Assembly: GCA_028824295.1 (NCBI GenBank)
Contig: JAPPED010000012.1
Coordinates: 1 to 48,621 of the forward strand
Source of the DNA: Rhodospirillales bacterium
Lineage (GTDB): Bacteria > Pseudomonadota > Alphaproteobacteria > TMED109
Reading direction: 5' to 3'
DNA length: 48,621 nucleotides
The notes under the pieces were generated by a model, which searched no databases, had not been told where the DNA came from, and saw only the letters and a list, made by a program, of their open reading frames with translations. Numbering within the stretch: the first letter of the stretch is position 1; each line of letters begins with the position of its first letter. Below are positions 8,187 to 39,809 of the stretch, piece after piece. Position numbers and translations under genes: made by a program.

Positions 8187-9860
8187 ATGAACAGCATCTT
8201 CGGTCGCGAAGCCTTTCTCGCGCTGCTCGAAAGCGAAGGCGTGTCCCATCTATTCGGAAACCCCGGCACCACCGAACTCCCGATCATGGCCGCACTGCCC
8301 GATCGGCCGGCGATCAACTATGTCATGGCGCTCCAAGAGGCGCTCGTGGTGGCCATGGCGGACGGCTACTCGCGCGCATCCGGCGACCTCAGCGCCTGCA
8401 ACGTTCACGTCGCGCCCGGCCTGGGCAACGCCATGGGGTCGCTTTACAACGCAAAGTGGATGGGGTCGCCGATCATCGTCACGGCCGGCCAGCAGGAGCA
8501 GGGGCACGGGCTCACCGAGCCGATGCTCTATGACTCCCTAGTGCCGATTGCGCAGCCGCTTGTGAAATGGGCGGTCGAGGTCAACCGGCTTCAGGACCTG
8601 CCGCGGATCGTGCACCGGGCGGCCAAGGTCGCGATGACCCCGCCGACCGGACCGGTGTTCATCTCGCTGCCCGGCGACATCCTCAATGAGCAAGATGCGC
8701 TGGAGCTTGGCCGGCCCACCCGGGTCGATACGTCCGGTCGCCCGAGCGATGCTGGGCTCGGGCGGCTGGCAGACCGGCTGCTCGCGGCGCGGCACCCGGT
8801 CATCATCGCCGGACACGAGATCGCGACCGCCGATGCCCTCGGGGAAGCGGCTACCCTCGCCGAGTTGCTCGGTGCACCGGTGTACCAACAGACGGTGTGC
8901 GACGGCGCCCATTTCCTCTCCGAGCATCCGGCTTTCATGGGCGCACTGACCCGCGACCAGCGACAGGTTCGCGACACGCTTGCTCCTCACGACCTGATGT
9001 TCTGCGTCGGCTCCGACGTGTTGCGCATGTCCGTGTTCAGCGAGACTGACCCGATGCCCGACGGCATGGTCGTGGTCCAGCTGGGGCTTCGCGACTGGGA
9101 GATGGGCAAGAACTACCCCGCGGATATCGCGTTGCGGGCCGACGTGAAGGAAGGCCTCGCCGCCCTAGCCGGCGCGATCCAACGCAAGCAAGGCCCGGCC
9201 GGCGCCCGGAAGGCGGCAGCGGCGCTTGCAGCGCTCGGCCCATCCAACTGGTCGGCGAAGCGCGAAGCCGTTCGGATCGATGCCCTGAAGGGTGCCGGCG
9301 CAACGCCCATGCCGCCGTCGCTGGCCATGCTTCGGATCGTGGATGCCCTGCCCGACGACGCGGTCATCGTCGACGAAGGGATCCTGAGTACCCGCTCCCT
9401 CCCCTCGCTCTATCCGTTCCGCGACGCGAAGGCGCTCTTTGGTCTGGGCAGCGGCGGCATCGGGTTCGCGATGGCCGGGGCGGTCGGTGTGCAGCTCGCC
9501 CTTCCCGATCGTCCCGTCGTCGCCATCGTCGGCGACGGCAGTGCCATGTACAGCATCCAGGCCCTCTGGACCGCTGCCAACGCCAAGCTCCCGATCACGT
9601 ACGTCATCGCCAACAACGGCGGCTACAGGATCATCAAGGAGCGGCTGAAGTCGTTTCACGGCGTCGAGCGCTACACCGGCATGGAGTTCAAGGACCCGCC
9701 AATCGACTTCACCGGGCTGGCCCGCTCAATGGGGGTGTACGCTCAGTCGATCACGGACCCCGACGACATCGCGCCCGCCATCGCCGAGTCGACCCGGTGC
9801 AACCAGCCGACGCTGCTTGACGTTATGGTCGACGACGGGTTCGGGAACGAAGGACGGTAG
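8187..9860 (+). CDS. Thiamine-diphosphate-dependent decarboxylase, benzoylformate decarboxylase-like
   Basis: A 557-residue three-domain ThDP enzyme (N-terminal Pyr domain, central domain, C-terminal PP domain). Seen: Glu51 in YVMALQEALVV, which activates the cofactor; and VGDGSAMYS near residue 448 with the paired NN in VIANNGGY, the Mg/diphosphate motif. It aligns well with benzoylformate decarboxylase (MdlC): His74 in NVHVAPGLGN and the His of LSEHPAFMG match that enzyme's two active-site histidines, while its active-site Ser is Thr28 here (GNPGTTE). A 2-keto acid (benzoylformate-like) decarboxylase is the best guess; a carboligase or another pyruvate-oxidase-family member is possible. The usual mandelate-pathway partners are absent. 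The AGAGG before the ATG is rather far (about 13 bases). Confidence 0.85.
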   Translation: MNSIFGREAFLALLESEGVSHLFGNPGTTELPIMAALPDRPAINYVMALQEALVVAMADGYSRASGDLSACNVHVAPGLGNAMGSLYNAKWMGSPIIVTAGQQEQGHGLTEPMLYDSLVPIAQPLVKWAVEVNRLQDLPRIVHRAAKVAMTPPTGPVFISLPGDILNEQDALELGRPTRVDTSGRPSDAGLGRLADRLLAARHPVIIAGHEIATADALGEAATLAELLGAPVYQQTVCDGAHFLSEHPAFMGALTRDQRQVRDTLAPHDLMFCVGSDVLRMSVFSETDPMPDGMVVVQLGLRDWEMGKNYPADIALRADVKEGLAALAGAIQRKQGPAGARKAAAALAALGPSNWSAKREAVRIDALKGAGATPMPPSLAMLRIVDALPDDAVIVDEGILSTRSLPSLYPFRDAKALFGLGSGGIGFAMAGAVGVQLALPDRPVVAIVGDGSAMYSIQALWTAANAKLPITYVIANNGGYRIIKERLKSFHGVERYTGMEFKDPPIDFTGLARSMGVYAQSITDPDDIAPAIAESTRCNQPTLLDVMVDDGFGNEGR

Positions 9861-10780
9861 GACCGGCCTGAATGCTATCGCCGCACGCGGGGCGACCAAA
9901 GCGGCGCTCACTTGTTTCCGCCGACCGGTGTCGCGATGGATAAAAGCGGGCACGGCCGCCCAGCGCAACGGTCTGTCCTGGTACGAGATCGAAGTGGCGA
10001 TCGGCGCCGCGACCGGGTCGCAGGGAGATGCTTCCATGCCGGATCGCGTCGGCGAGGCCGGAAATGTGATCACCAGATCGGCTGCCGGCGCATTGCCCGC
10101 GGCCCGCGAACGACTCCCGCGAACACACGAACCTGCCAACGTTGTGGTGACGGAAGCCACGCTCGAACCCGTTGCCTGCGATGCCGGCCCCGGCCGGCCG
10201 GCGCACGCAAGCCTCATTGCGCTCAGCCCCGCCATGCCGGCGGAAGTCCATCCCCACACCGGGGACCACTCGCCGCTGAGCTACCTCTCCAAGCCGCCGA
10301 TCAATTATTTTTCGCGAGCCCTGCGCAAGGCACGACCTCGAGCGACGCGGCGGCGTCAGGCTCGCTGAGCATACGCCCGCCAGCCCGCCGGTCGTTGGCC
10401 CATGGGGCGCTGTTCATGAGTACTGCGCTTCCCGGGCACAGGCAGCCGGACTGCCAGCGAGATGACAGCCTGGCGCTTGATCGCGGAGGCGGATCCGCGC
10501 GCGAAGTTCGGCATCGTTGTTGAAGAACTTTAGATCTCGGAGTCGCCGGCCCAACTGAAGCGGATACCCCCTCGGCCACGGCGTTGATTTCCACGGCACC
10601 TTTGGCGGTCGGTCCCGGCCCGGCTGCATGGCAACAGGTGGCCACCGAACTCAGCGTGAAAGCCAGCCGAACCCGACGTCGGCTTCGATGGCCGGTCAGC
10701 TCTCGGATGTCCGACCTGGAACGGGTGGTGTCTACACTGCACACAGCCACTTTGCCCGTCACCTTCCGTCGGAGGCCGCC
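9861..10780. other. Long gap without recognisable gene
   Basis: 920 bases. Open frames on both strands run through parts of it but match nothing I recognise; the plus-strand frame from 10628 is the untranslated lead-in to the next gene. A stretch at 10271-10295 resembles a tRNA 5' end on the minus strand but lacks the rest (see the rejected list). Confidence 0.5.
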
Positions 10781-14504: not shown

Positions 14505-15296
14505 ATGATCCGCGTGGTGGACCTGCACAAGCATTTCGGTGGCGTGCGGGCGGTCGACGGGGCGAGCCTGAACATCGGGGAAGGGGCGATCACCGGCCTG
14601 ATCGGGCCGAATGGTGCGGGCAAGACCACCCTCTTCAACGTCATCGCCGGGGTCTACCCGCCCACCTCTGGCCGCGTCTTTCTGGCCGAGGAGGACATCA
14701 CGGGCCTCCGCCCGCATCAGCTCTATCGCAGGGGCGTGGTGCGCACGTTCCAGATTGCGCATGAGTTCACCACGTTAACCGTCGTCGAGAACCTGATGGC
14801 GTCGGTCGGCAACCAGACCGGCGAAAGCCTTGTCGGGGCGTGGCTGCACCGGGGCCGCGTGCGGGAGGAGGAAGCGAGGCTTCGAGGCCGGGCGGAGGAA
14901 GTGATCGAGTTCCTGAACCTCGGAGAGGTCGCCGATACGCCGGCCGGTGAACTCTCGGGCGGCCAGAAGAAGCTTCTGGAACTCGCCCGCGTGATGATGA
15001 CCGGCGCCAAGGTAGTCCTGCTCGACGAGATCGGGGCCGGGGTCAACCGAACGCTGCTGCGTTCCATCTCGGGGGCCATTCTGCGGCTCAATATCCATCA
15101 CGGATACACGTTCTGTCTGATCGAGCACGACATGGACTTGGTCTCGCTGCTCTGCGACCCGGTGATCGTGCTGGCGGAGGGGAAGGTCCTCGTCGAAGGT
15201 TCCCCCATGGATGTTCGGTCCGACGATCGGGTCATCGAAGCCTACCTGGGCTCCAGGTCGCGAACCGGCGGTCCCGGGGCGGCTGGTCCCGCATGA
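14505..15296 (+). CDS. LivG-type ABC transporter ATPase (operon 1)
   Basis: A 263-residue cytoplasmic ATPase. Walker A is GPNGAGKTT (residues 34-42), signature LSGGQKKLLELAR, Walker B VVLLDE with IGAGVN replacing the common PxAGLN, and a switch His in LIEHDMDLV. It pairs with the following LivF-type ATPase to drive import through the two permeases. The stop overlaps the next start (ATGA). It lies 95 bases after the binding-protein gene. Confidence 0.93.
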   Translation: MIRVVDLHKHFGGVRAVDGASLNIGEGAITGLIGPNGAGKTTLFNVIAGVYPPTSGRVFLAEEDITGLRPHQLYRRGVVRTFQIAHEFTTLTVVENLMASVGNQTGESLVGAWLHRGRVREEEARLRGRAEEVIEFLNLGEVADTPAGELSGGQKKLLELARVMMTGAKVVLLDEIGAGVNRTLLRSISGAILRLNIHHGYTFCLIEHDMDLVSLLCDPVIVLAEGKVLVEGSPMDVRSDDRVIEAYLGSRSRTGGPGAAGPA

Positions 15297-15997
15297 GCTT
15301 CCTGACCGGCACCGACATGTATGGCGGGTACGGCGGCGGCGACATACTGCGGGGCTGCACAGTAGCGGTCGACAAGGGCGAGATCGTGGTGATGGTGGGC
15401 CCGAACGGCGCCGGCAAGTCGACAGCCATGAAGGCCCTGTTCGGGATGGTGCGGCTCCGCCAGGGGGAGGTTCGACTGGCCGGTCAAGCCATCACCAGTC
15501 TCTCGCCGCAGAGTCGCGTGAAGCGGGGAATGGCGTTTGTTCCGCAGACCGGCAACATCTTCACGACCATGACGGTTGAGGAGAACCTGGAGATGGGCGC
15601 CTTCTTGCGCCGCGACGACATCTCGGAAAGCATGGAACGCGTGTTCGGACTGTTTCCCGCTCTCGGGGAGAAGCGTCGCCAGTCGGCCGGGGAATTGTCC
15701 GGCGGCCAGCGCCAGCAGGTGGCAATCGGCCGCGCGCTGATGACGCAACCGGCCGTGCTCATGCTTGACGAGCCCACTGCCGGCGTGGCTCCAATCGTTA
15801 TGGACGAGCTGTTCGACCGGATTCTCGAAATCCGGCAGGCGGGCATCGCCGTGCTCATGGTGGAACAGAACGCCCGTCAGGCGCTGGCGATCGCGGATCG
15901 CGGGTTCGTGCTGGTGACCGGCGAGAACCGGTTTACCGACAGCGGCCGGGCCCTGCTGGCCAACCCGGAAGTACGACGCTCGTTTCTCGGCGGATGA
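15293..15997 (+). CDS. LivF-type ABC transporter ATPase (operon 1)
   Basis: A 234-residue partner ATPase. Walker A is GPNGAGKST (about residue 37), signature LSGGQRQQVAIGRAL, Walker B VLMLDEPTAGVAP, and MVEQNARQAL for the switch region. The start overlaps the LivG-type stop by four bases, which implies translational coupling. The permease gene begins six bases after the stop. Confidence 0.93.
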   Translation: MSFLTGTDMYGGYGGGDILRGCTVAVDKGEIVVMVGPNGAGKSTAMKALFGMVRLRQGEVRLAGQAITSLSPQSRVKRGMAFVPQTGNIFTTMTVEENLEMGAFLRRDDISESMERVFGLFPALGEKRRQSAGELSGGQRQQVAIGRALMTQPAVLMLDEPTAGVAPIVMDELFDRILEIRQAGIAVLMVEQNARQALAIADRGFVLVTGENRFTDSGRALLANPEVRRSFLGG

Positions 15998-29144: not shown

Positions 29145-31460
29145 CTAGGCCGGCGCGTGGGCCGGTCTCGGGGTGTCCTGCCGGGCGGCTCGCGCCTTCA
29201 GTTGCGCGACGAGTGGTGGGCAACGGGTCTTGTCGTCGTGCAGGACCTGGCAGTCCAGGCAGTAGAAGCATTCGCTCATGTTGATCTTGCCGGACCGGTC
29301 GATGGCGCCGGTGGGACAGACGGGCCCGCAGGCCTGGCAGGGACTGCCGCACTCGGGGCGGCGCCGGAGGAACGAGAACACCCGGATCCGGCCGAGGATC
29401 GCGAGGCCGGCACCAAGGGGACACAAGAAGCGGCAGAAGGCGCGCTCCACGAACAGCGCGAGAATCAGGAGCCCGCCCGCCCACAGCACCGCCGCCGTCG
29501 GCGCGTCGAAGCGGAGCGTGATCGCGGTCTTGAACGGCTCGATGCCGGCCGCCCACGCCGCCCACTCGAAATCCACGAACGTAAGCACAAGGAGGACGGC
29601 CAGAACCGCGTACTTCACGCCGGAGAGTCGCTTGGTCCAGAGCGGCGGTATGTGCGGCCGCCGGACCCGGAACGTCCGCGCGAGACGACCCAGCAGTTCC
29701 TGCATGGCTCCGTAGGGACACAGCCAGCCGCAGAAGAGCGAGCGACCCCAGAATGGCAGGGTCACCAGTGCCGCAATGCCAACGATCGTGATCAGTGGCT
29801 CCGCGAGAAATCCGGCGAACCCGCCGCCGTAGAACGGAACCTGGACGACGTTCATGAGGTGGAGGACCGTGAGCTGCCCTCCCGCCACGATCCCGAGCCA
29901 GCCGACGATCCAGACGAGGAGACCGATCCGGATGACCCGATAGAGGGTGCGGTTGCGCACGATTAAGCGCTGGAAGGTGAGTGTCAGGATGACCGCGAGC
30001 GCCGTCGCAAACCCCAGCGCCACGGTCACGGGCTGGTCACGCCAGATGCCCTGCCAGTCCAGTCCGCTGTCCAGCGCAGCCGCAGCGGTCTCCACCGGTG
30101 GCAGCGGCAGCGGTTCGGCACGCACGTAACGGGCCGGGATGGCGTAGGTGACCGGGAAGACCGCGGACGCCGGCACGGCGTCTTCCGGCGCCCCCCGGGC
30201 CAGGTCACCGTCGACCACGTACTCCAGGCTCCATGGTCGTGTGGGATCCGGCCCGGTCCCGGGAGCGAAATAAAACAATCCCTGGTCGTCCAGGGTGGGA
30301 GCCTCGGCGATGTGGTGGAAGGGAAGCGCCTTGAAGAGTTCCGGCGTCAGCGCGATCGTGCGATCATCCTGGCGAATGCGGAGGTTGTCGTACACCTCCG
30401 GCGCGACGGCAGTGGCGCGCGTGTCCCGGAAACCAATCGGCCCGCGGAAGCCGACCCAGATGACCACGTCCCCGACCGAACGGCCCGCGGACACGTACTG
30501 GTCGTACCAACGACGGTCAAGGATGTTGATGCCGATACCGGCCGGGGTAACGAACGCCGCATAGACCTCGGCAACCGGCTCATCTGCGCCGGCGTATCGG
30601 ACCGACCTCGGGAGCGCCGTGTTGGCGTCTCCTTCAAGCGCAGCCTCGAGTTCCCCGACCGTAACCGTGCGGGAGGCTATGGAGCTGTCCTCCAACAGCG
30701 ACGCCCACGGCTGTGCCGTCATCTGCTCGAGATCAAGCACCCGACCCAGGTCATCCGCGGACAGGACGGACCCCCGGTCACGCATGACCTTGCGTGAACC
30801 ACGCATGATGGCGTCCATGAACAGAAGCGACGAGGTCGTGATCCGGGAGATGGCGTCGACAGGCACGAGATCCGACGTGTCGCCGGCGGTCTCGCGCATG
30901 GCGATCGCCTCGCCTTCCAGGACCGAATCCGACAGCCCGAGCCGCATGCTGATCCCGCGGGCGGTGTCGATCTCGGTGTACTGCGTCAGGTACTGGTGAA
31001 AGTCCTCGTCCGTCCGGCCGAGGATGGCGATCGGCTCCACGTGGGCGAGCAGCCGCACGCCCGAGAGCACGCCGTCCTTCCGCACGCCGACCATGAGATG
31101 AAATGGCCGCCGCGAGTAGCCCAATCCGCGCACCGTGTCATACGTCTCGAACACGTACCCCACGAGTTGGCCGCCCTGGTAGACGTCTGCACTTGGAAAA
31201 TCGCCCGGAACGAGTTCGAACGAATCTGCACCTGGGAACACGTACTGGATCGTTTCGTCGTTCAGGTAGGTCGCAAGAAACGAGTCCGTGCCGGGCGCGG
31301 TCGTGGCCTCTTCGGGCTCGTCCTCCTTGGCCTGTTGCAGGATCGTGGGACCTTGCGCCGACGCCGGCCAAGCGTGCAGCAGCACGAGGAGGAGCAAGCC
31401 CGCGCCCGCAAGCAGTCGCCCACGGCAGCCGCCGTGTCCGGCAACAGTAGTACCTGGCAT
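29145..31460 (-). CDS. NosR/NirI-family FMN- and [4Fe-4S]-binding membrane protein
   Basis: A 771-residue protein with signal peptide (cleavage near residue 35, AWPASA-Q), a periplasmic FMN-binding domain (about 60-260; VGVRKDGVLSGVRLLAHVEP, and SRITTSS as the likely flavin-attachment Thr), then from about residue 455 several transmembrane helices with SLFCGWLCPYGAMQELL and FCRFLCPLGAG. The C-terminus (704-747) has CGSPCQACGPVCP and CFYCLDC, two iron-sulfur sites. NosR passes quinol electrons to nitrous oxide reductase; this gene has no nosZ, nosDFYL or denitrification gene beside it, so another electron-transfer or maturation role is possible. ATG 31460 has GAGGGGG 7 bases upstream. This start lies inside a livF relic (next entry). 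Confidence 0.85.
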   Translation of the reverse strand: MPGTTVAGHGGCRGRLLAGAGLLLLVLLHAWPASAQGPTILQQAKEDEPEEATTAPGTDSFLATYLNDETIQYVFPGADSFELVPGDFPSADVYQGGQLVGYVFETYDTVRGLGYSRRPFHLMVGVRKDGVLSGVRLLAHVEPIAILGRTDEDFHQYLTQYTEIDTARGISMRLGLSDSVLEGEAIAMRETAGDTSDLVPVDAISRITTSSLLFMDAIMRGSRKVMRDRGSVLSADDLGRVLDLEQMTAQPWASLLEDSSIASRTVTVGELEAALEGDANTALPRSVRYAGADEPVAEVYAAFVTPAGIGINILDRRWYDQYVSAGRSVGDVVIWVGFRGPIGFRDTRATAVAPEVYDNLRIRQDDRTIALTPELFKALPFHHIAEAPTLDDQGLFYFAPGTGPDPTRPWSLEYVVDGDLARGAPEDAVPASAVFPVTYAIPARYVRAEPLPLPPVETAAAALDSGLDWQGIWRDQPVTVALGFATALAVILTLTFQRLIVRNRTLYRVIRIGLLVWIVGWLGIVAGGQLTVLHLMNVVQVPFYGGGFAGFLAEPLITIVGIAALVTLPFWGRSLFCGWLCPYGAMQELLGRLARTFRVRRPHIPPLWTKRLSGVKYAVLAVLLVLTFVDFEWAAWAAGIEPFKTAITLRFDAPTAAVLWAGGLLILALFVERAFCRFLCPLGAGLAILGRIRVFSFLRRRPECGSPCQACGPVCPTGAIDRSGKINMSECFYCLDCQVLHDDKTRCPPLVAQLKARAARQDTPRPAHAPA

Positions 31461-31590
31461 CCCCGAACCCCCTCTTGTCGGATCCTGCAAGGCCGAGAGC
31501 AAACTCCTTCGTGCAGGAGATGTCGGACAGCTGTCTGGATGCGCGTTCCAAGACGACTCGGCCTCGCACCAGAATATAGCCTCAGTGGGC
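31420..31590 (-). pseudogene. Relic of a second LivF-type ATPase 3' end, overlapping the NosR-like start
   Basis: In the frame ending at 31420, the minus strand reads GYILVRGRVVLERAS, RQLSDISCTKEFALGLAG, SDKRGFGDARYYCCR. The intact LivF-type gene next door ends GYILENGRVVMEGAS, EELTENSDVKEFYLGLGE, SGRRGFRDAKHYRRR. By my own count 29 of 54 aligned positions are identical, up to the stop position. Upstream the relic is interrupted by TGA (31582-31584) and fades out near 31590. Its last 41 bases are the first codons of the NosR-like gene in another frame. It is a decayed partial tandem copy, or the trace of a lost second transporter operon. Confidence 0.8.
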
Positions 31591-31644
31591 CCGCTTGCGG
31601 TCCTAGCTCCGGCGTTACCGCTTTCTCGACCCGCCGGCAATCGT

Positions 31645-32487
31645 CTATGACAGCCAGCGCTTCCGGCGGCGATAGTGCTTGGCGTCCCGGAACCCTCGCC
31701 GGCCCGACTCGCCAAGGCCCAGGTAAAACTCTTTCACATCGGAGTTCTCGGTGAGCTCCTCGGACGCGCCTTCCATGACGACCCGGCCGTTCTCGAGGAT
31801 GTAACCGTAGTCCGAATGCTTGAGCGCGGCATGGGTATTCTGCTCGGCAAGGAGAAAGCTCACCTTCTCCTCCCGGTTGAGACGGTCGACGATGCCGAAG
31901 ATCTCGGCCAGTAACTGCGGCGCCAACCCCATGGACGGTTCGTCGAGCAGGATCATCCGCGGGCGCGCCATGAGCGCCCGGCCGATCGCAGTCATCTGCT
32001 GCTCGCCGCCCGAGATGTAGCCCGCTTGCGTGTGCCGGCGGTCTCGGAGCCGCGGAAAATAGGCGTAGGTCTTGTCCAACTGCTCCCGTCGTTCCGCCCG
32101 ACTTTCGCTGCGGGTGTACGCCCCCAACAGGAGGTTCTCCTCGACCGTCAGGTGCTCGAAGCAGTGGCGGCCTTCCATGACCTGCACGAGGCCTTTCCGC
32201 ACGAGATCGGACGGGGTGAGCGAGTCCGTCTCCGTGCCGTCGTACACGATGCTGCCCCGGGTGACCTCACCCCTCTCCCCCTTCAGGATGTGGGAGATGG
32301 CCTTCAGCGTCGTGGTCTTGCCGGCGCCGTTGGCGCCGAGCAGTGCCGTGATCCCGCCGCGGGGCACGCTCAGGGACACACCCTTGAGCACGAGGATCAC
32401 CCGGTTGTAGACGACCTCGATGTTGTTGGCCGACAGCAGCGGGCCGGACGCGTCATCCGGGCCCGTCGCTGTCGCGGCGTCGGTCAT
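31645..32487 (-). CDS. LivF-type ABC transporter ATPase (operon 2)
   Basis: A 280-residue ATPase, longer than most LivF proteins because of N-terminal (about 15 residues) and C-terminal (GLGESGRRGFRDAKHYRRRK) extensions. Walker A is GANGAGKTT, signature ISGGEQQMTAIGRAL, Walker B MILLDEPSMGLAP, switch LLAEQNTHAAL. The C-terminal basic tail is typical of the LivF proteins found in operons with acyl-CoA synthetases. The start overlaps the binding-protein stop by one base. Last gene of the operon. Confidence 0.94.
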   Translation of the reverse strand: MTDAATATGPDDASGPLLSANNIEVVYNRVILVLKGVSLSVPRGGITALLGANGAGKTTTLKAISHILKGERGEVTRGSIVYDGTETDSLTPSDLVRKGLVQVMEGRHCFEHLTVEENLLLGAYTRSESRAERREQLDKTYAYFPRLRDRRHTQAGYISGGEQQMTAIGRALMARPRMILLDEPSMGLAPQLLAEIFGIVDRLNREEKVSFLLAEQNTHAALKHSDYGYILENGRVVMEGASEELTENSDVKEFYLGLGESGRRGFRDAKHYRRRKRWLS

Positions 32488-33812
32488 CAGGACTCGCAGG
32501 TCCGCGGCGTGATGCCCTTCTCGGCGGCGTACTTCGCGGCCGACTCCTCGATCATCCCGCGCACCAGGTCACGATCGGGCTCCAGCCAGTCGGACGCCGT
32601 TTCGAAGGACTCACCCGTCCATCGCACGAACAGGACCTTGCCGCCACCCTCGTGGTCGGCGCAGCTCACGCTGATCGGCGGCACCAGGTTGGTGGCGCCG
32701 GCGGCCGCTATGTCGGCGTCGGTGAGGTCCATGTTCTCGATCCCCCAGCGTACCTCCTCACCGCTGAGCGCCCGGGCACCGAACTCGCCCATCGCCGTGC
32801 GAATGGCCTCAACGGTCACGAAGGCATTGATGACCCCGCGGTTGTAGAAGCCGGTGCCGACCGCCTCGCGAGGACCCGTGCCGTCGCCGGCATCGTGCAC
32901 GTGCGTGATGATGTCCTGCATCAACTGGAAGTCGGTCCCGTTGTTGTGGAAGGTCGAACACGTGTAGCCGACGGCCGCGTCACCAGCCGGAACCGTGTCC
33001 TGCTCGGCGCAGGACCACCAGACGCCGACGATCTTGTCGGCGGGTACCCCAACGCGGGCAGCCTCCTTCAGGGCGGTCTGGTTCATGACCCCCCAACCGC
33101 GGAGAATCACGTAGTCCGGCCGATAGCGCCGCACGTTCAGCCAGACGGCCTTCTGGTCGATGCCGGGGTGCACGACCGGGAAATGCTGCACCTCGAAGCC
33201 GTAGCGCTCGGCCTGCTTCGCCAGGACCGGCGCCGTCTCCTTGCCGTAGGCCGAGTCGTGGTGGACGTTGGCGATCTTCAGCCCGTCCAGGTTCTCGAAG
33301 CCGCCCTCCAGGCTCGCGATGTAACGGATCTTGGCGGTGTTCTGGCTCCAGTAGTTCACCATCAGCGGAAACACGTACGGGAATACCCGTCCGTCGCTTG
33401 CGTCGGTGCGGCCGTATCCGAGAGTAATGAGCGGGATCTTGTCGGCCGGCAACCGGTCGATGACCGCGTAAGTCAGCGGCGTGCCCAGCGGGTTGAAGAC
33501 TGACGCGCCGCGCTCGCCCCGATTCTTCAACCGCTCGTAGCACTCGACAAAGCGGTCCGGCTTGTAAGCGGTCTCGCACTCCTCCCAGGCGATCCGCACC
33601 CCCTCGATACCGCCGTCACGGGCGTTGATCATCTTCAGGTAATCGACGAACCCGTCCTGAAACGGGATTCCACCGACCGCATACGGACCCGTCCGGTAAC
33701 TGGTGATGGGGATGAACTGCTCGGCGCCGTCGCCGGACTGATCTTGCGCCACTGCCGGCACCGGCGCCGCCAAGACCAAGGCGGCCAAGGCAACAAACAT
33801 GCACTTGTGCAT
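32487..33812 (-). CDS. ABC transporter substrate-binding protein (operon 2)
   Basis: A 441-residue periplasmic protein with signal peptide (residues 1-22, ending VPAVA-Q) and a Liv-type fold: ITSYRTGPYAVGGIPFQDGF, then VDYLKMINARDGGIEG, YERLKNRGERGASVFNPLGT, and IANVHHDSAYGKETAPVL. The Y-R-x-GPYA start and the two Cys pairs (CETAY, CYERL; WWSC, YTC) set it apart from the operon 1 binding protein. GGGAG precedes the ATG. With a CoA ligase in the operon, an aromatic or aliphatic carboxylic acid is a reasonable ligand, as inference. Confidence 0.93.
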   Translation of the reverse strand: MHKCMFVALAALVLAAPVPAVAQDQSGDGAEQFIPITSYRTGPYAVGGIPFQDGFVDYLKMINARDGGIEGVRIAWEECETAYKPDRFVECYERLKNRGERGASVFNPLGTPLTYAVIDRLPADKIPLITLGYGRTDASDGRVFPYVFPLMVNYWSQNTAKIRYIASLEGGFENLDGLKIANVHHDSAYGKETAPVLAKQAERYGFEVQHFPVVHPGIDQKAVWLNVRRYRPDYVILRGWGVMNQTALKEAARVGVPADKIVGVWWSCAEQDTVPAGDAAVGYTCSTFHNNGTDFQLMQDIITHVHDAGDGTGPREAVGTGFYNRGVINAFVTVEAIRTAMGEFGARALSGEEVRWGIENMDLTDADIAAAGATNLVPPISVSCADHEGGGKVLFVRWTGESFETASDWLEPDRDLVRGMIEESAAKYAAEKGITPRTCES

Positions 33813-33834
33813 GGCTTACTCCCGATTTTCTCAA

Positions 33835-34899
33835 TCAGTAAGGGAACGGCCAGAGTCTGAGCTTTTCCTTGACGATTTGCCACAGCCGCGCCAGGCCGAG
33901 AGGCTCGACGACAAGGAACAGGATGATCAGGCCGCCGAAGATGACGAACTCAAGATGGGCAATGGTTTCCGCGGAAAGCGCGCTACCGAACACGCCGCTC
34001 GCGTTGGCGATGAAGATTGGGAGCAGCACGATGAACGCCGCGCCGAGGAATGAGCCGAGAATGCTGCCGAGCCCGCCGATGATCACCATGAACAGAATCT
34101 CGAACGAACGCAGCACGTCGAATGCCTGCGGCTCGACGGTCCCGAGATAGACGTACGCCCAGAGCGCACCCGCCACGCCGCAATAGAACGAACTGACCGC
34201 GAACGCGGTGAGCTTCGTTGCCATGAGGTTGATTCCGATGGCTTCGGCCGCGACGTCCATGTCGCGCACTGCCATCCAGGCCCGCCCCAGTTCGCTGCGA
34301 ACCATGTTCTTGGCCATGATCGCCATCCCGGCCACGATGCAGAGAGTCAGCAGATAGCGGGACACCGCGCTCTCGAAGCTGTAGCCGAGCAGGGTCATTG
34401 GCGGCGCGGTGATCACGCCCGAAGTGGAGTAGTTGGTAAACCAGCCGACGTGCGTGAACAGCCATTCGATGAAGAATTGGGCGGCTAGGGTGGCGACCGC
34501 CAGGTAAAACCCCTTGATGCGGAGGGACGGGAGTCCAAACAGGATTCCGACCCCGGCCGCGGCCAGCCCCGCTACGACGAAGGACACCAGGAACGGCACC
34601 TCCGGCACGCGTACCTCGAGGTTGTACGCTGCAAAGGCGCCCACGGCCATGAACGCCGCGGTTCCCAGCGACAGCTGCCCGGTATATCCGGTCAGGATGT
34701 TCAAGCCGATCGCGGCCAGCGAAAACACCAGGACAGGCGTCAGCACGGAACGCAGCCAGTACTCGTTGGCGAAGAGTGGAATCACCACGAACGCCACCAC
34801 CAGGAGAATGGCAATCCCGATCCGGTCCTGGCGGATCGGGAAGATGGCGCGATCAGCGGCGTAGGTCGTCTTGTACTGGCCGGTCTCGCGGTAAAACAC
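33835..34899 (-). CDS. LivM-type ABC transporter permease (operon 2)
   Basis: A 354-residue polytopic permease. GLNILTGYTGQLSLGTAAFM is the LivM signature helix; LGRAWMAVRDMDVAAEAIGI is its cytoplasmic coupling loop; GGLGSILGSFLGAAFIVLLP is the C-terminal glycine-rich helix. The start is GTG at 34899 with AGGATC 8 bases upstream. It lies 22 bases before the binding-protein gene. Confidence 0.94.
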   Translation of the reverse strand: MFYRETGQYKTTYAADRAIFPIRQDRIGIAILLVVAFVVIPLFANEYWLRSVLTPVLVFSLAAIGLNILTGYTGQLSLGTAAFMAVGAFAAYNLEVRVPEVPFLVSFVVAGLAAAGVGILFGLPSLRIKGFYLAVATLAAQFFIEWLFTHVGWFTNYSTSGVITAPPMTLLGYSFESAVSRYLLTLCIVAGMAIMAKNMVRSELGRAWMAVRDMDVAAEAIGINLMATKLTAFAVSSFYCGVAGALWAYVYLGTVEPQAFDVLRSFEILFMVIIGGLGSILGSFLGAAFIVLLPIFIANASGVFGSALSAETIAHLEFVIFGGLIILFLVVEPLGLARLWQIVKEKLRLWPFPY

Positions 34900-34909
34900 G
34901 TTCAGATCC

Positions 34910-35800
34910 TCACACGCGTTCGATGATCTTTTCGCCGAAGAGGCCCTCGGGCCGCACCATCAGCACGAGCATCGCCAGCATGTACGGGAACCAGTTTTCC
35001 AGCCCGCCACCCACGAACGGGCCCAAGTACACCTCGGCCAGCTTCTCGCTGGCCCCCACGATCAGGCCGCCCACGATTGCGCCCGGGATCGAGGTGAAGC
35101 CGCCGATGATCATCACCGGGATCGCCTTGAGCGCCACCAGTGAGATGGAGAACTGCACGCCGAGCTTGGAGCCCCACACGAGGCCGGCCACGAGGGCCAC
35201 GAACCCCGCCACGGACCAGACTGCGACCCAAACGTGATGCAGGGGGATGCCGATCGACAGGGCCGCCTGATGGTCATCCGCCACGCCGCGAAGCGCCCGC
35301 CCCATCGTGGTGGTGCGGAAGAACACGCCCAGCCCGGCCACGAGGAGGGCCACGACGGCGGCGGCGACCAAATCGAAGTGGCTGACCAGAATGGGCCCCA
35401 GCCACAAACCCCGATCGGGAATTCCGAGATCGAGGACGTGCACTTCCGTACCCCAGACGGTCTGGCCAAGGCCCTCCAGGAAGTAGGCCAGCCCGATGGT
35501 CGCCATGAACAGGATGACCTGGGGTTGGTTCACCATGTGTCGGAACACAAAACGTTCCACGGCGAAGGCGAGCACCACCATCACGGCCAGCGTGATCACG
35601 GCTGCCAGCAGCATCGGCGCACCCAGCTCCAGCACGCCCACGAAGGTCAGCGCCGCAAACAGCACCATGGTGCCTTGGGCAAAGTTGAAGATGCCTGATG
35701 CCTTGTAGATCAGCACGAAACCGAGGGCGACAAGCGAGTACAGCGTGCCCGACAGCAGGCCGCCAATCAGCACCTCGAGGAAGAAGTAAAGCTCGTCCAT
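34910..35800 (-). CDS. LivH-type ABC transporter permease (operon 2)
   Basis: A 296-residue permease: GLLSGTLYSLVALGFVLIYK is the first membrane segment, then FNFAQGTMVLFAAL, RGVADDHQAALSIGI and GGFTSIPGAIVGGLIVG. ATG 35800 is used; the frame is open upstream but the permease begins MDELYFFLEVLIGG, as its homologues do. It lies 13 bases after the LivG-type stop. Confidence 0.94.
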   Translation of the reverse strand: MDELYFFLEVLIGGLLSGTLYSLVALGFVLIYKASGIFNFAQGTMVLFAALTFVGVLELGAPMLLAAVITLAVMVVLAFAVERFVFRHMVNQPQVILFMATIGLAYFLEGLGQTVWGTEVHVLDLGIPDRGLWLGPILVSHFDLVAAAVVALLVAGLGVFFRTTTMGRALRGVADDHQAALSIGIPLHHVWVAVWSVAGFVALVAGLVWGSKLGVQFSISLVALKAIPVMIIGGFTSIPGAIVGGLIVGASEKLAEVYLGPFVGGGLENWFPYMLAMLVLMVRPEGLFGEKIIERV

Positions 35801-35813
35801 CACGCGTCCGGTC

Positions 35814-36611
35814 TCAGTGCTCGTGCGCAGTTCCGAGGTACGCGTCAATCACCGTCTGGTCACGGCGCACGTCGTCGGGAGCGGCGTCGGCAATCTTGCG
35901 GCCGTAGTCGAACACGGCCACCCGGTCGGAAATATCCATCACGACGCCCATGTCGTGCTCGACGAGGATCAGGGTCGTGCCATGAATCTCGTTGACGTCC
36001 AGGATGAACCGGCACATGTCCTCCTTCTCTTCGAGGTTCATGCCGGCCATCGGTTCATCGAGCAGCAGGAGCTCCGGTTCCGCCGCCAAGGCCCGGCCGA
36101 GCTCCACCCGCTTCTGCATCCCGTAGGGGAGCTCGCCGACGGGAGTTCTCCGGACCGAGGGAATCTCCAGGAAGTCGATGATTTCCTCGGCCCGGCGCCG
36201 ATGCTCGATTTCCTGTCGGCGCGCCCACCCCAGCTGCAAGGCCTCGCTGAGGATGCCGCGGCGCATCAGGCTGTTGCGCCCCGTCATGATGTTGTCGAGC
36301 GCCGACATGCCCGGGAACAGCGCGATGTTCTGGAAGGTCCTCGCAATACCGAGACGGGCGACCTCATACGGTTTCATGCGTGGTGGCCGTTCCTCGCCCT
36401 TGTGGCGAACGACACCGGAAGAAGCGGTGTAGATGCCGCTGATGATGTTGAATAGCGAGCTCTTGCCGGCGCCGTTCGGCCCGATAATTGCGAGCCGTTC
36501 GCGCGGCTGGACCGCCACGCTCACATCCTGCAGTGCCCGCAGGCCGCCGAAGGAAAGGTGAATGTTCTCGAGCGCAGTGACCGGAGGGCCGCTGCCGATC
36601 TCGCGTTTCAT
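35814..36611 (-). CDS. LivG-type ABC transporter ATPase (operon 2)
   Basis: A 265-residue ATPase. Walker A is GPNGAGKSS, the LivG motif LGIARTFQNIALFPGM follows, then signature LPYGMQKRVELGRAL (degenerate LSGGQ, common in this subgroup), Walker B LLLLDEPMAGMN and switch LVEHDMGVVM. The start overlaps the acyl-CoA synthetase stop (ATGA). Confidence 0.94.
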   Translation of the reverse strand: MKREIGSGPPVTALENIHLSFGGLRALQDVSVAVQPRERLAIIGPNGAGKSSLFNIISGIYTASSGVVRHKGEERPPRMKPYEVARLGIARTFQNIALFPGMSALDNIMTGRNSLMRRGILSEALQLGWARRQEIEHRRRAEEIIDFLEIPSVRRTPVGELPYGMQKRVELGRALAAEPELLLLDEPMAGMNLEEKEDMCRFILDVNEIHGTTLILVEHDMGVVMDISDRVAVFDYGRKIADAAPDDVRRDQTVIDAYLGTAHEH

Positions 36612-38557
36612 GCCGCCGCCGCCACGGGAGCGGCTTCATCCACGTCCCAGATCTGCACGTCGGCCTCAATCGTCCCCCGCCGGCCGTCCTCGAAGGTGAC
36701 CTCGGCCGCTACGCGGCAAGAGTCCCGACCCGCGTACAAGGCTTCCACGAGCTCGCCATAGTTTTGACCGATCACGGTCCGACGGACCTTTCGGGTTCGG
36801 GTGAGTTCGCCGTCGTCGGCGTCGAGTTCCTTGTGGAGGACGAGAAAGCGTCGAATCTGGGAGCCGCGCAGCGCCGGATCCGCGCCGAGGTCGGCGTTTA
36901 CCTCGCGGATCGCACCGCGCACCAGCTCATACACCTCCTTTTGCCGTGCAAGATCGGTGTATCCCGAGTACGCGATACCGCGGCGCTCAGCCCAGTCGCC
37001 CACCGCCTCAAGGTCGATGTTGATCATGCAGCAGGCCATGTCGCGCTCGTGCCCGAAGGCCACCGCCTCGCGGATCCACGGGTGGAACTTGAGCTTGTTC
37101 TCGATGAACTTGGGTGCGAACAGCGTACCGTCGGTGAGCGCTCCCACGTCCTTGGCCCGGTCGACGATCCGCAGGTGCCCGGCTTCGTCGAAGTACCCCG
37201 CATCCCCGGTTCGCACGAAGCCGTCCTCGGTCATTGACTTCGCCGTCGCATCGTCGTCCCGGTAGTAACCCTGGAACACGCCATCGCCGCGGAACTGAAC
37301 CTCCTGGTCCTGGATTCGGACCTCGACCCCGGGGAACGTGGCGCCGACCGTGTCGGCCCGCGCTTCCGCATCGGCCTGAATCGTCACGTAGACCGAGGCT
37401 TCGGTCTGGCCGTACAGCTGCTTGAGGTTGATCCCCAGCGACCGGAAGAAACGGAACACATCAGGCCCGATCGCCTCGCCGGCGGTGTAGGCCACGCGGA
37501 TGCGGCCCAATCCGAGTACGTCGCGGAGCGGTGCGTAGATCAGCAGATCGCCCACCGCATACTGCAGTCTCTGCAGCGGGTTGACCCGGTTCCCGTCAAG
37601 AATGTCGCAGCCAACGCGCCGGGCCACGCCCAGGAAGTAGGAAAACAGGCGACGCTTGACCAGGGCGGCATTCTCCATGCGGACCATGAGGGAAGTCAGC
37701 ATGTTCTCGAAGATGCGCGGTGGGGCGAAGTAGTAGGTCGGGCCGATTTCGCGCAGATCGGTCAGCACGGTCTCCGGCGACTCGGGGCAGTTCACGCAGA
37801 ACCCGGCGATATGGCACTGCGCGATCGAAAACACGAAATCACCCACCCATGCCATTGGCAGGTAGGCCAGCACCTCGTCGCTGTGGGTCAAGCTGTCGAA
37901 CTTGACCGCGCGCCGGGCCGGCTCGATCAGGTTGGCGTGCGTGAGCAGCACCCCTTTGGGTCGGCCGGTGGTGCCGGACGTGTAGAGGATGGCCGCGATA
38001 TCCGTGGGGCGGCCGCGGGCGACTTCCCGCTCGTAGTCTTCGGGGTCCCGGCCATGCAGACCCTTCCCGGCCTCGGCGACGGCAGCTAGGTTAACCAGTC
38101 CTTCGACCTCGTCGTACCGCTCAAGACCACGCGGGTCGGTGTAGACGATCGCCCGCAATTCGGGGAGGCGGTCACGGACCTCAATGAGCTTGTCGACCTG
38201 CTCCTGATCCTCGACCACGGCAATCCGCACGCCGGCATGTTCGCAAACATAGGCAATCTCTTCGGCGACCGAATCCTGGTAACACGGAACGGGTATGGCA
38301 CCGATGGTCTGACCGGCAGTGAACGACCAGTAGAGGTGCGGCCGGTTGTCCCCGATGATCGCAAAGCGGTCGCCGCGATCGAGGCCAAGAGAGCGGAGCC
38401 CGAGCGCCAGGTGCCGCACCTCCTCGGCAACCTCGGACCACGTCCATGTCTGCCAGATCCCGAATTCCTTCTCGCGGTAGGCGGGCCGATCACCCAGGTG
38501 TTCGGCGTTCGCCCGCAGAAGCCTCGGGAATGTGTTTGCAGCGGGTTTTCCAGCCAT
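36608..38557 (-). CDS. AMP-dependent acyl-CoA synthetase (long-chain type)
   Basis: A 649-residue adenylate-forming enzyme that activates a carboxylic acid with ATP and CoA. Seen: the P-loop AILYTSGTTGRPKGV (about residue 190), the central motif QLYGQTEASVYVT, DGFVRTGDAGYFDEAGHLRI (adenylate contacts) and IVDRAKDVGALTDG in the hinge region. No classical C-terminal PTRKVRR-Lys is clear, but RTRKVRRTVIGQNY near the end fits the FadD/long-chain subgroup. First gene of the transporter operon, so the imported acid is probably activated on entry. ATG 38557 starts the protein at MAGKPAANTFP; the open frame extends upstream without similarity. Confidence 0.94.
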   Translation of the reverse strand: MAGKPAANTFPRLLRANAEHLGDRPAYREKEFGIWQTWTWSEVAEEVRHLALGLRSLGLDRGDRFAIIGDNRPHLYWSFTAGQTIGAIPVPCYQDSVAEEIAYVCEHAGVRIAVVEDQEQVDKLIEVRDRLPELRAIVYTDPRGLERYDEVEGLVNLAAVAEAGKGLHGRDPEDYEREVARGRPTDIAAILYTSGTTGRPKGVLLTHANLIEPARRAVKFDSLTHSDEVLAYLPMAWVGDFVFSIAQCHIAGFCVNCPESPETVLTDLREIGPTYYFAPPRIFENMLTSLMVRMENAALVKRRLFSYFLGVARRVGCDILDGNRVNPLQRLQYAVGDLLIYAPLRDVLGLGRIRVAYTAGEAIGPDVFRFFRSLGINLKQLYGQTEASVYVTIQADAEARADTVGATFPGVEVRIQDQEVQFRGDGVFQGYYRDDDATAKSMTEDGFVRTGDAGYFDEAGHLRIVDRAKDVGALTDGTLFAPKFIENKLKFHPWIREAVAFGHERDMACCMINIDLEAVGDWAERRGIAYSGYTDLARQKEVYELVRGAIREVNADLGADPALRGSQIRRFLVLHKELDADDGELTRTRKVRRTVIGQNYGELVEALYAGRDSCRVAAEVTFEDGRRGTIEADVQIWDVDEAAPVAAAA

Positions 38558-38585
38558 AGTCTCTGCGTCGTGCGAGGGGGAGAGG

Positions 38586-38610
38586 CCTGCAGTGGCGATG
38601 GCACTGCAGG
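38586..38610. promoter_or_regulatory. Perfect inverted repeat upstream of the acyl-CoA synthetase operon
   Basis: CCTGCAGTG (38586-38594) and CACTGCAGG (38602-38610), an exact 9-bp dyad with a 7-base centre, end 29 bases before the operon's start codon. Size and position fit an operator for a dimeric repressor such as TetR type, or a 5' leader hairpin. No regulator gene is adjacent. Confidence 0.5.
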
Positions 38611-38849
38611 AACACGATTCTCGTTGGCCCGCGAAGTTGTGGCCCGGACCCGTGGCGGAATGCTTGGGCTCGGTGGGGGCCGGCCCGGAATCAGCCCAGA
38701 TGGCGATGCCACAGCCAGCGTATGTGTCTACCACACAGGCCCTTGGTTTTCCACGGATAGAGCCCGTCATGCGGGCGAAAACACTGTAGCTTGCACTTGC
38801 GTGCGGTCTGCGCGAGCATCGCTGCCCTGAACCGGAGGGTCCCGCTTCC

Positions 38850-39809
38850 ATGACCCGCTTCTTCGCCGCCCTCCTACTGGTGGGCGTGGCCGTCGCAACC
38901 GGCCCAGCCTGGGCGGCCGACACGTTTCTTCGCATGGTCTCGGGGCCGGCTGGCGGGAACTGGTACCCCCTCGGCGCCAAGCTCATGGAAATCGTCGGTA
39001 CCGGCCTTGACCAAGTGGTGACGTCCAATGCCCCTGGCGGCGGCGGGGCCAACGTGCAGGACATCAACCGCGGCGACGCCGAGATCGGCTTCAGTTACGG
39101 GCACACCGTCTACCGCGCCTTCTCCGGCGTTGACCGCTCCGGCAAGGAGCACCCCAACCTCCGGTTCGTCGCGACGCTGTATCCCGCCGCCCTGCAAACC
39201 GCGGTGCCGGCCGACTCCGACATTGTGTCCTACTTCGATCTACAGGATCGCAATATCAGCCCCGGCAAGGCCCGCTGGTCCGGTTTCGAGGCCGTGCAGC
39301 TGCTCCTTTCCTATTACGGGTTCGGAGTTGACGACGTTCGCGCCAACGGCGGCACGGTGCACCACGTGTCGTACAGCGATTCCGTGGCGCTGATGCGCGA
39401 CGGGCACATCGACGCCTTCTCCGGCCTCACCAGCGTCCCGCAGGCGTCCTTCATCGATCTCAATTTCAGCGTGGGAATCCGGTTCCTGCCAGTCGAGGAT
39501 GACGTTCGTACGCGTTTTCTCGCCGAGAATCCCGGATACGTCGACAGCGTGATCCCGCAGGAGGCATATGAGGACCAGTCCGGCGACGTGCCGACCGTAG
39601 GGGCCACGACCGTCCTCATCGTCAACAAGGATGTTCCCGAAGAGGTGGTCTACGGCGTGACCCGCCTGCTGTGGGAACGTCATGCGGATCTCGCTGCCGT
39701 GAGTCCGACCTGGAAAAACGCCAGGCGGGAAGATGCCCTGCAGGCAGCGATCATCCCGCTCCATCCCGGGGCGGAACGCTACTACACGGAACACGGCCTG
39801 CTCCCCTAG
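38850..39809 (+). CDS. TAXI-family TRAP transporter substrate-binding protein
   Basis: A 319-residue periplasmic receptor of the TRAP-associated extracytoplasmic immunogenic (TAXI) family: signal peptide ending GPAWA-A near residue 23, then LRMVSGPAGGNWYPLGAKL, the TAXI N-terminal motif, TSNAPGGGGANVQDINRGDA, and IGFSYGHTVYRAF. GGAGGG lies about 10 bases before the ATG. It hands a substrate (often an organic or amino acid; unknown here) to the fused permease 15 bases downstream. Divergent from the acyl-CoA synthetase operon. Confidence 0.94.
   Translation: MTRFFAALLLVGVAVATGPAWAADTFLRMVSGPAGGNWYPLGAKLMEIVGTGLDQVVTSNAPGGGGANVQDINRGDAEIGFSYGHTVYRAFSGVDRSGKEHPNLRFVATLYPAALQTAVPADSDIVSYFDLQDRNISPGKARWSGFEAVQLLLSYYGFGVDDVRANGGTVHHVSYSDSVALMRDGHIDAFSGLTSVPQASFIDLNFSVGIRFLPVEDDVRTRFLAENPGYVDSVIPQEAYEDQSGDVPTVGATTVLIVNKDVPEEVVYGVTRLLWERHADLAAVSPTWKNARREDALQAAIIPLHPGAERYYTEHGLLP

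Follow-up and report, generated by a model that had tools for sequence, protein, structure and literature searches.

The liv operon and its NosR-like gene

The window, by which we mean the whole stretch of DNA analysed, comprised 48,621 nt of contig JAPPED010000012.1 (GCA_028824295.1) from a Rhodospirillales bacterium of the TMED109 lineage. Its minus strand carries an operon made up of an AMP-dependent ligase gene, five liv genes and, as the last gene, one encoding a NosR/NirI-like membrane protein. The stretch behind the intact livF contains a decayed copy of the livF 3' end, hereafter the tail, in which the nosR-like gene is predicted to begin (Table 1).

Table 1. Features of the operon, the tail and the nosR-like start in the window
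Feature	Positions	Strand	Basis
NosR/NirI-like membrane protein gene, 4Fe-4S motifs, 771 aa, last in liv operon	29145..31460	(-)	NCBIfam, Pfam
Start and first 14 nosR-like codons, out-of-frame livF tail (MPGTTVAGHGGCR)	31420..31460	(-)	alignment, frame reading
Decayed copy of livF 3' end, codons ~223-280 to stop position	31420..31598	(-)	DNA and protein alignments, tree
SD-like GAGGGGG (AGGAGGGGG in clade B), from livF codons for RRG	31468..31474	(-)	seven-genome comparison
GCTATATTC block, identical in 7/7 genomes; livF has GCTACATCC or GTTACATCC	31572..31580	(-)	seven-genome comparison
Spacer, livF stop to tail; first 15-21 bases possibly homologous to nosR-like codons 15-21	31599..31644	(-)	register match
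Intact livF, branched-chain amino acid type ABC ATPase, 280 aa	31645..32487	(-)	ORF, NCBIfam, synteny
AMP-dependent ligase, livG, livH, livM, livK (operon remainder)	32487..39067	(-)	ORFs, synteny

The best NCBIfam match of the intact livF was LivF (E 4e-61), at 206 bits against a cut-off of 441 for the LivF equivalog NF008626, and we therefore call it LivF-type, from its best match and operon context only. The protein of the last gene matched the NosR profile NF046105 almost completely (E 5e-126) and, like members of the NosR/NirI family, has a 4Fe-4S part, with a Pfam Fer4_5 match. It differs from that family in its setting, a ligase-liv operon, and its 421.6 bits lie far below the equivalog cut-off of 1000, so that the name NosR-like is used throughout. 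The genome of the window contains three NosR-family genes, namely that of the liv operon (C12) and those at C26:50193-52313 and C34:120482-123418; the second encodes about 770 aa, and the third has about 1300 codons and two family matches, as if fused. The plus strand of the window also carries, at 14550-15991, a further pair of livG/livF-type ATPase genes, approximately 34-36% identical to livF.

Starting from the NosR-like protein (90-99% identity), we reached six other genomes of the genus, which together with that of the window form two clades: A (L014, L015, L016 and L020) and B (L017, L018 and L019). The gene order of the operon was alike throughout the genus and in the sister genera g4 and g5, and in the sister genus g2 just livK, livF and the nosR-like gene were visible before the contig end. 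Orthologues of the intact livF were syntenic across the genus and the family.

A second copy of the livF 3' end

The first-pass annotation had read 31420-31590 as a degraded repeat of the livF end, with about 29 identities in 54 residues and alignable to the stop. Comparison with shuffled sequence bore this out: the local DNA alignment of the tail region (31400-31640, minus strand) with the livF end scored 61, whereas the best of 2000 dinucleotide shuffles scored 33, and under an alternative scoring the values were 335 and 205. The DNA identity was about 68% across 166-181 columns and the protein identity 52-56%. When the LivF protein was searched against six-frame translations of the whole genome, 31429-31596 aligned with LivF residues 223-278 at 52% identity (E 7e-10), and tblastn gave 56% across residues 228-279; the earlier count agrees with both. 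The region is GC-rich, which could favour chance similarity between such stretches, but none of the 2000 shuffles matched the observed score, and the tail was present in seven genomes and formed a strong clade in the tree described below. We consider the probability of a chance resemblance to be negligible.

The aligned copy ended exactly at the stop position of livF, where a TAG is still present in L015, L016 and L020 (3/7 genus members). The tail of L014 has one TGA in the livF frame and those of clade B have a one-base deletion, so that the tail can no longer encode the LivF end. The copy adjoins its source on the same strand, shares a recent common ancestor with it, is incomplete (codons ~223-280) and no longer encodes the source protein, as expected of a partial tandem duplication. 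The left border of the duplicated unit is eroded; the right border is the livF stop or a point 15-21 bases past it. Self-comparison of the window revealed the tail and livF as its sole same-strand repeat, and the tail DNA used as a query against the whole genome returned no further locus. All seven genomes of the genus showed the identical structure (intact livF followed by a spacer and the tail, in which the ATG occupies the same position), and an assembly error was thereby discarded as the source of the tail.

A DNA tree of the livF 3' end was built from the seven tails and the livF ends of the genus, the family and 26 other alphaproteobacteria. The tails formed one clade (support 99/98), and the tails and the livF ends of the genus together formed another (100/100), leaving the sister genera and the 26 other alphaproteobacteria outside. 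The tail and the LivF of the genus also share the genus-marking residues RG..DA, where other LivF proteins have KS..DV. These clades and shared residues strongly indicate that this livF was partly duplicated on one occasion, in the stem lineage of the genus.

Two origins had been offered earlier, a partial duplication and the loss of another transporter operon, and the first of these alone agrees with the tree and the residues. The tail might instead be what is left of a second liv operon, or of a resident livF pushed out by an incoming one; the old age of the copy, which is merely ~67-78% identical to the intact livF end across the genus, would fit this origin, as would the LivF protein of the genus, equally far (~70%) from the sister genera and from other alphaproteobacteria. 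However, the tails fall with the genus livF rather than nearer a different livF lineage, the LivF protein tree unites the genus and the family (support 90), the entire operon is syntenic with that of the sister genera, whose operons are free of the tail, and a whole-genome LivF search found no other intact livF above 50% identity. We therefore regard displacement or a lost second operon as very unlikely, and a relic of a different transporter operon was rejected on the tree and synteny.

Between clades A and B the tails were 77-83% identical and the intact livF ends 84-88% identical. Taken with the divergence of the tail from livF given above, these values indicate that the copy was made before the genus divided. 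In L016 and L020, the sequence between the livF stop and the stretch that aligns with the tail contains 343 bases absent from the other members; these gave no match of weight in the genus (one 25-base stretch aside), in livF or in the nosR-like gene.

The sister genera keep the order ligase-livGHMKF-nosR-like and have no tail. Their nosR-like gene starts 47-68 bases past livF, mostly behind a GGGAG motif, with an unrelated N-terminus, and the other family members, in which no livF adjoins the nosR-like gene, again have different N-termini. A look through the wider genome collection for intermediate lineages showed this livF directly ahead of the nosR-like gene only in members of the sister genera. 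Thus, relatives without the tail, with or without an adjoining livF, do not share the N-terminus of the genus, contrary to what would be expected had that N-terminus existed independently of the tail. Because the sister genera have the same gene order, no tail, and other starts and N-termini, the duplicated tail appears to have replaced the start of the downstream nosR-like gene. In other genera of the family (loci L028-L032, L179, L180, L182 and L183), the nosR-like gene occurs without liv genes and near a second, oppositely oriented NosR-family gene of approximately 31% identity.

Putative translation start and leader of the nosR-like gene

The ATG at 31460 was the sole start codon common to all seven genomes. 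It descends from livF GG-GAT-GCC, within codons for R R G F R D A, and lies inside the copy as the first-pass annotation had placed it; about 14 nosR-like codons lie within the copy, one more than the 13 given there. The suggestion of a livF origin for the ribosome site and leader was also supported, as GAGGGGG, the ATG and codons 1-14 are all homologous to out-of-frame livF codons. In L018 and L019, translation of the intact livF in the nosR-like frame yields MPSTTAAASAGCRR, and the NosR-like proteins of the same genomes begin with MPSTTVAGNAGWR. The codons of the new protein segment thus derive from the other frame of an older gene, as in overprinting. In the protein sequence, codons 1-14 precede a hydrophobic run and an ASAQ-like end, and the residues that they encode are read as the putative n-region of a signal peptide.

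Between the clades, the bases from -16 to 0 before the ATG were 81% identical and the first 42 coding bases 79%, in comparison with 57-65% at fourfold sites. When the first 14 codons of L016 were compared with those of clade B, 4/7 and 5/9 changes fell at third positions of the nosR frame; these small numbers are a suggestive hint of translation in that frame. An upstream TTG (-30 or -42) could in principle be the start of the protein, with the ATG internal, since such codons are in frame in clade A. In clade B they are absent, the frame being shifted by the one-base deletion, and the SD-like site stands ahead of the ATG only; even if used, a TTG start would still lie within the livF tail. We consider initiation at a TTG extremely improbable.

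Altogether, it is very probable that the livF 3' end was duplicated and joined to the NosR-like gene, and that it now provides the putative leader and start of that gene. The duplication took place once, in the stem lineage of the genus; it covered at least the final ~56 livF codons up to the stop, and perhaps a further 15-21 bases, and the copy was joined to the hydrophobic core of the NosR-like signal peptide. The ancestral leader, SD and start of the NosR-like gene, as found in the sister genera, were lost or displaced. The copy would make no LivF peptide and may act as a 5' leader for the nosR-like gene: ribosomes would bind GAGGGGG, formerly Arg-Arg-Gly codons of livF, and start at the ATG formed from GG-GAT-GCC, and approximately 14 residues would be translated in a frame foreign to livF to give the signal-peptide n-region. 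The gap between livF and the nosR-like gene has widened from 47-68 bases in the sister genera to 184-548 in the genus, and therefore translational coupling to livF has probably weakened.

The bases just past the livF stop bear on the order of events. In L014 and L015, 11/15 of them agreed in register with nosR-like codons 15-21, a match equalled in 0.0005 of other registers; averaged over the genus, the p value was 0.003-0.02, and no significant match was obtained in L016 and L020. This is weak evidence that the livF homology extends 15-21 bases beyond the stop. Past these first bases, the spacer of the genomes tested resembled neither a decayed 5' part of the nosR-like gene nor further livF better than shuffles did.

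The register match would also be expected if an overlap had come first, that is, if the gap between livF and the nosR-like gene had already been lost and the nosR-like start already lay inside livF before the duplication. A tandem duplication across that junction would give the order livF, nosR fragment, livF fragment, nosR; this is a variant of the duplication account and not its alternative. The matching post-stop bases (RRLPAG against GRLLAG in L014) are in line with it, as are the AGGAG retained by clade B livF and an ATG at the homologous place in 2/3 genomes of that clade. The match is short and missing in L016 and L020, however, the longer spacers have no similarity to the nosR-like gene, and a duplicated piece running 15-21 bases past the stop would give the same match. 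We therefore hold an initial overlap to be possible, though not the favoured sequence of events. It is likewise only tentatively suggested that the duplication relieved an overlap between livF and nosR, which left a spare copy able to evolve into a leader, start and signal-peptide n-region for the nosR-like gene alone.

We also examined the conservation of the leader. The GCTATATTC block is a possible -10-like element, although the length of this run was not significant at the divergence between clades A and B. A consensus RNA fold contained an 8-pair helix within 31460-31580, AGGCCGAG / CTCGGCCT, with one two-sided change in clade B; with few independent lineages, it could be due to chance or be an RNA element. 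Strong constraint on the whole leader was sought between the clades and not found. Because the identity of the whole leader was 69%, most of it may drift, evolving near the neutral rate, with the exception of the SD-ATG block.

These data also bear on the proposal that the tail was retained because it brought the nosR-like gene a new promoter or RNA element, TATATT having arisen there by mutation of livF bases. The invariance of GCTATATTC (conserved TATATTC block) in 7/7 genomes where livF has GCTACATCC, and a helix nearby that was kept through one two-sided change, are consistent with such a role. So is the persistence of the tail, older than the genus split and with few indels, behind a spacer that varies from 49 to >340 bases. 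On the other hand, no -35 match was present, a consensus promoter scan of the tail returned none on the coding (minus) strand, the 69% identity of the leader compares with 57-65% at fourfold sites, and only two clades are independent. Retention as a promoter or RNA element is accordingly rather unlikely in our estimation.

Relation to known processes

Tandem duplication in bacteria can hand a gene a new promoter (PMC11111574 and references therein). The livF-tail event is similar in that a short duplication by illegitimate recombination yields a new 5' region; it differs in that a translation start and N-terminal codons were captured, out of frame, and in that the event is old and fixed across the genus, whereas the promoter arose under laboratory selection. 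Overprinting and gene overlaps through reading-frame extension are also known (PMC2174442, PMC4683798). As in these, coding sequence arises from the other frame of an existing gene, but the DNA of the livF tail is a spare copy, its frames are not in conflict, and only about 14 codons are concerned. In deletion-born gene fusions (PMC12803068), a structural change likewise attaches a piece of one gene to another; here, in contrast, the source livF is intact, because what was joined is a second copy, which is moreover read in another frame than its source. A limited literature search found no report of a gene whose ribosome site, start and signal-peptide n-region come from the duplicated 3' end of its neighbour, read out of frame. 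We regard this case as an unusually clean example of known processes, namely partial duplication, overprinting and start capture; it is an accident of evolution and does not represent a new type of system.

Within the 449 kb surveyed from the genome of the window, a few other repeats on the same strand lay near each other, mostly inside single long reading frames. One that is not within a single reading frame is a 162-base direct repeat at L195 (G000:C1), 9292-9452 and 10467-10628, whose copies are 85% identical and 1.2 kb apart; it is possibly a similar local duplication or a repeated element.

The livF tail, with its clear phylogenetic position and an intact source gene next door, shows how the out-of-frame 3' end of a neighbour can give a bacterial gene a different ribosome site, start codon and N-terminus. 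If gene 3' ends often hold an SD-like sequence and an ATG, such captures may be commoner than has been noticed and could account for some poorly conserved N-termini.
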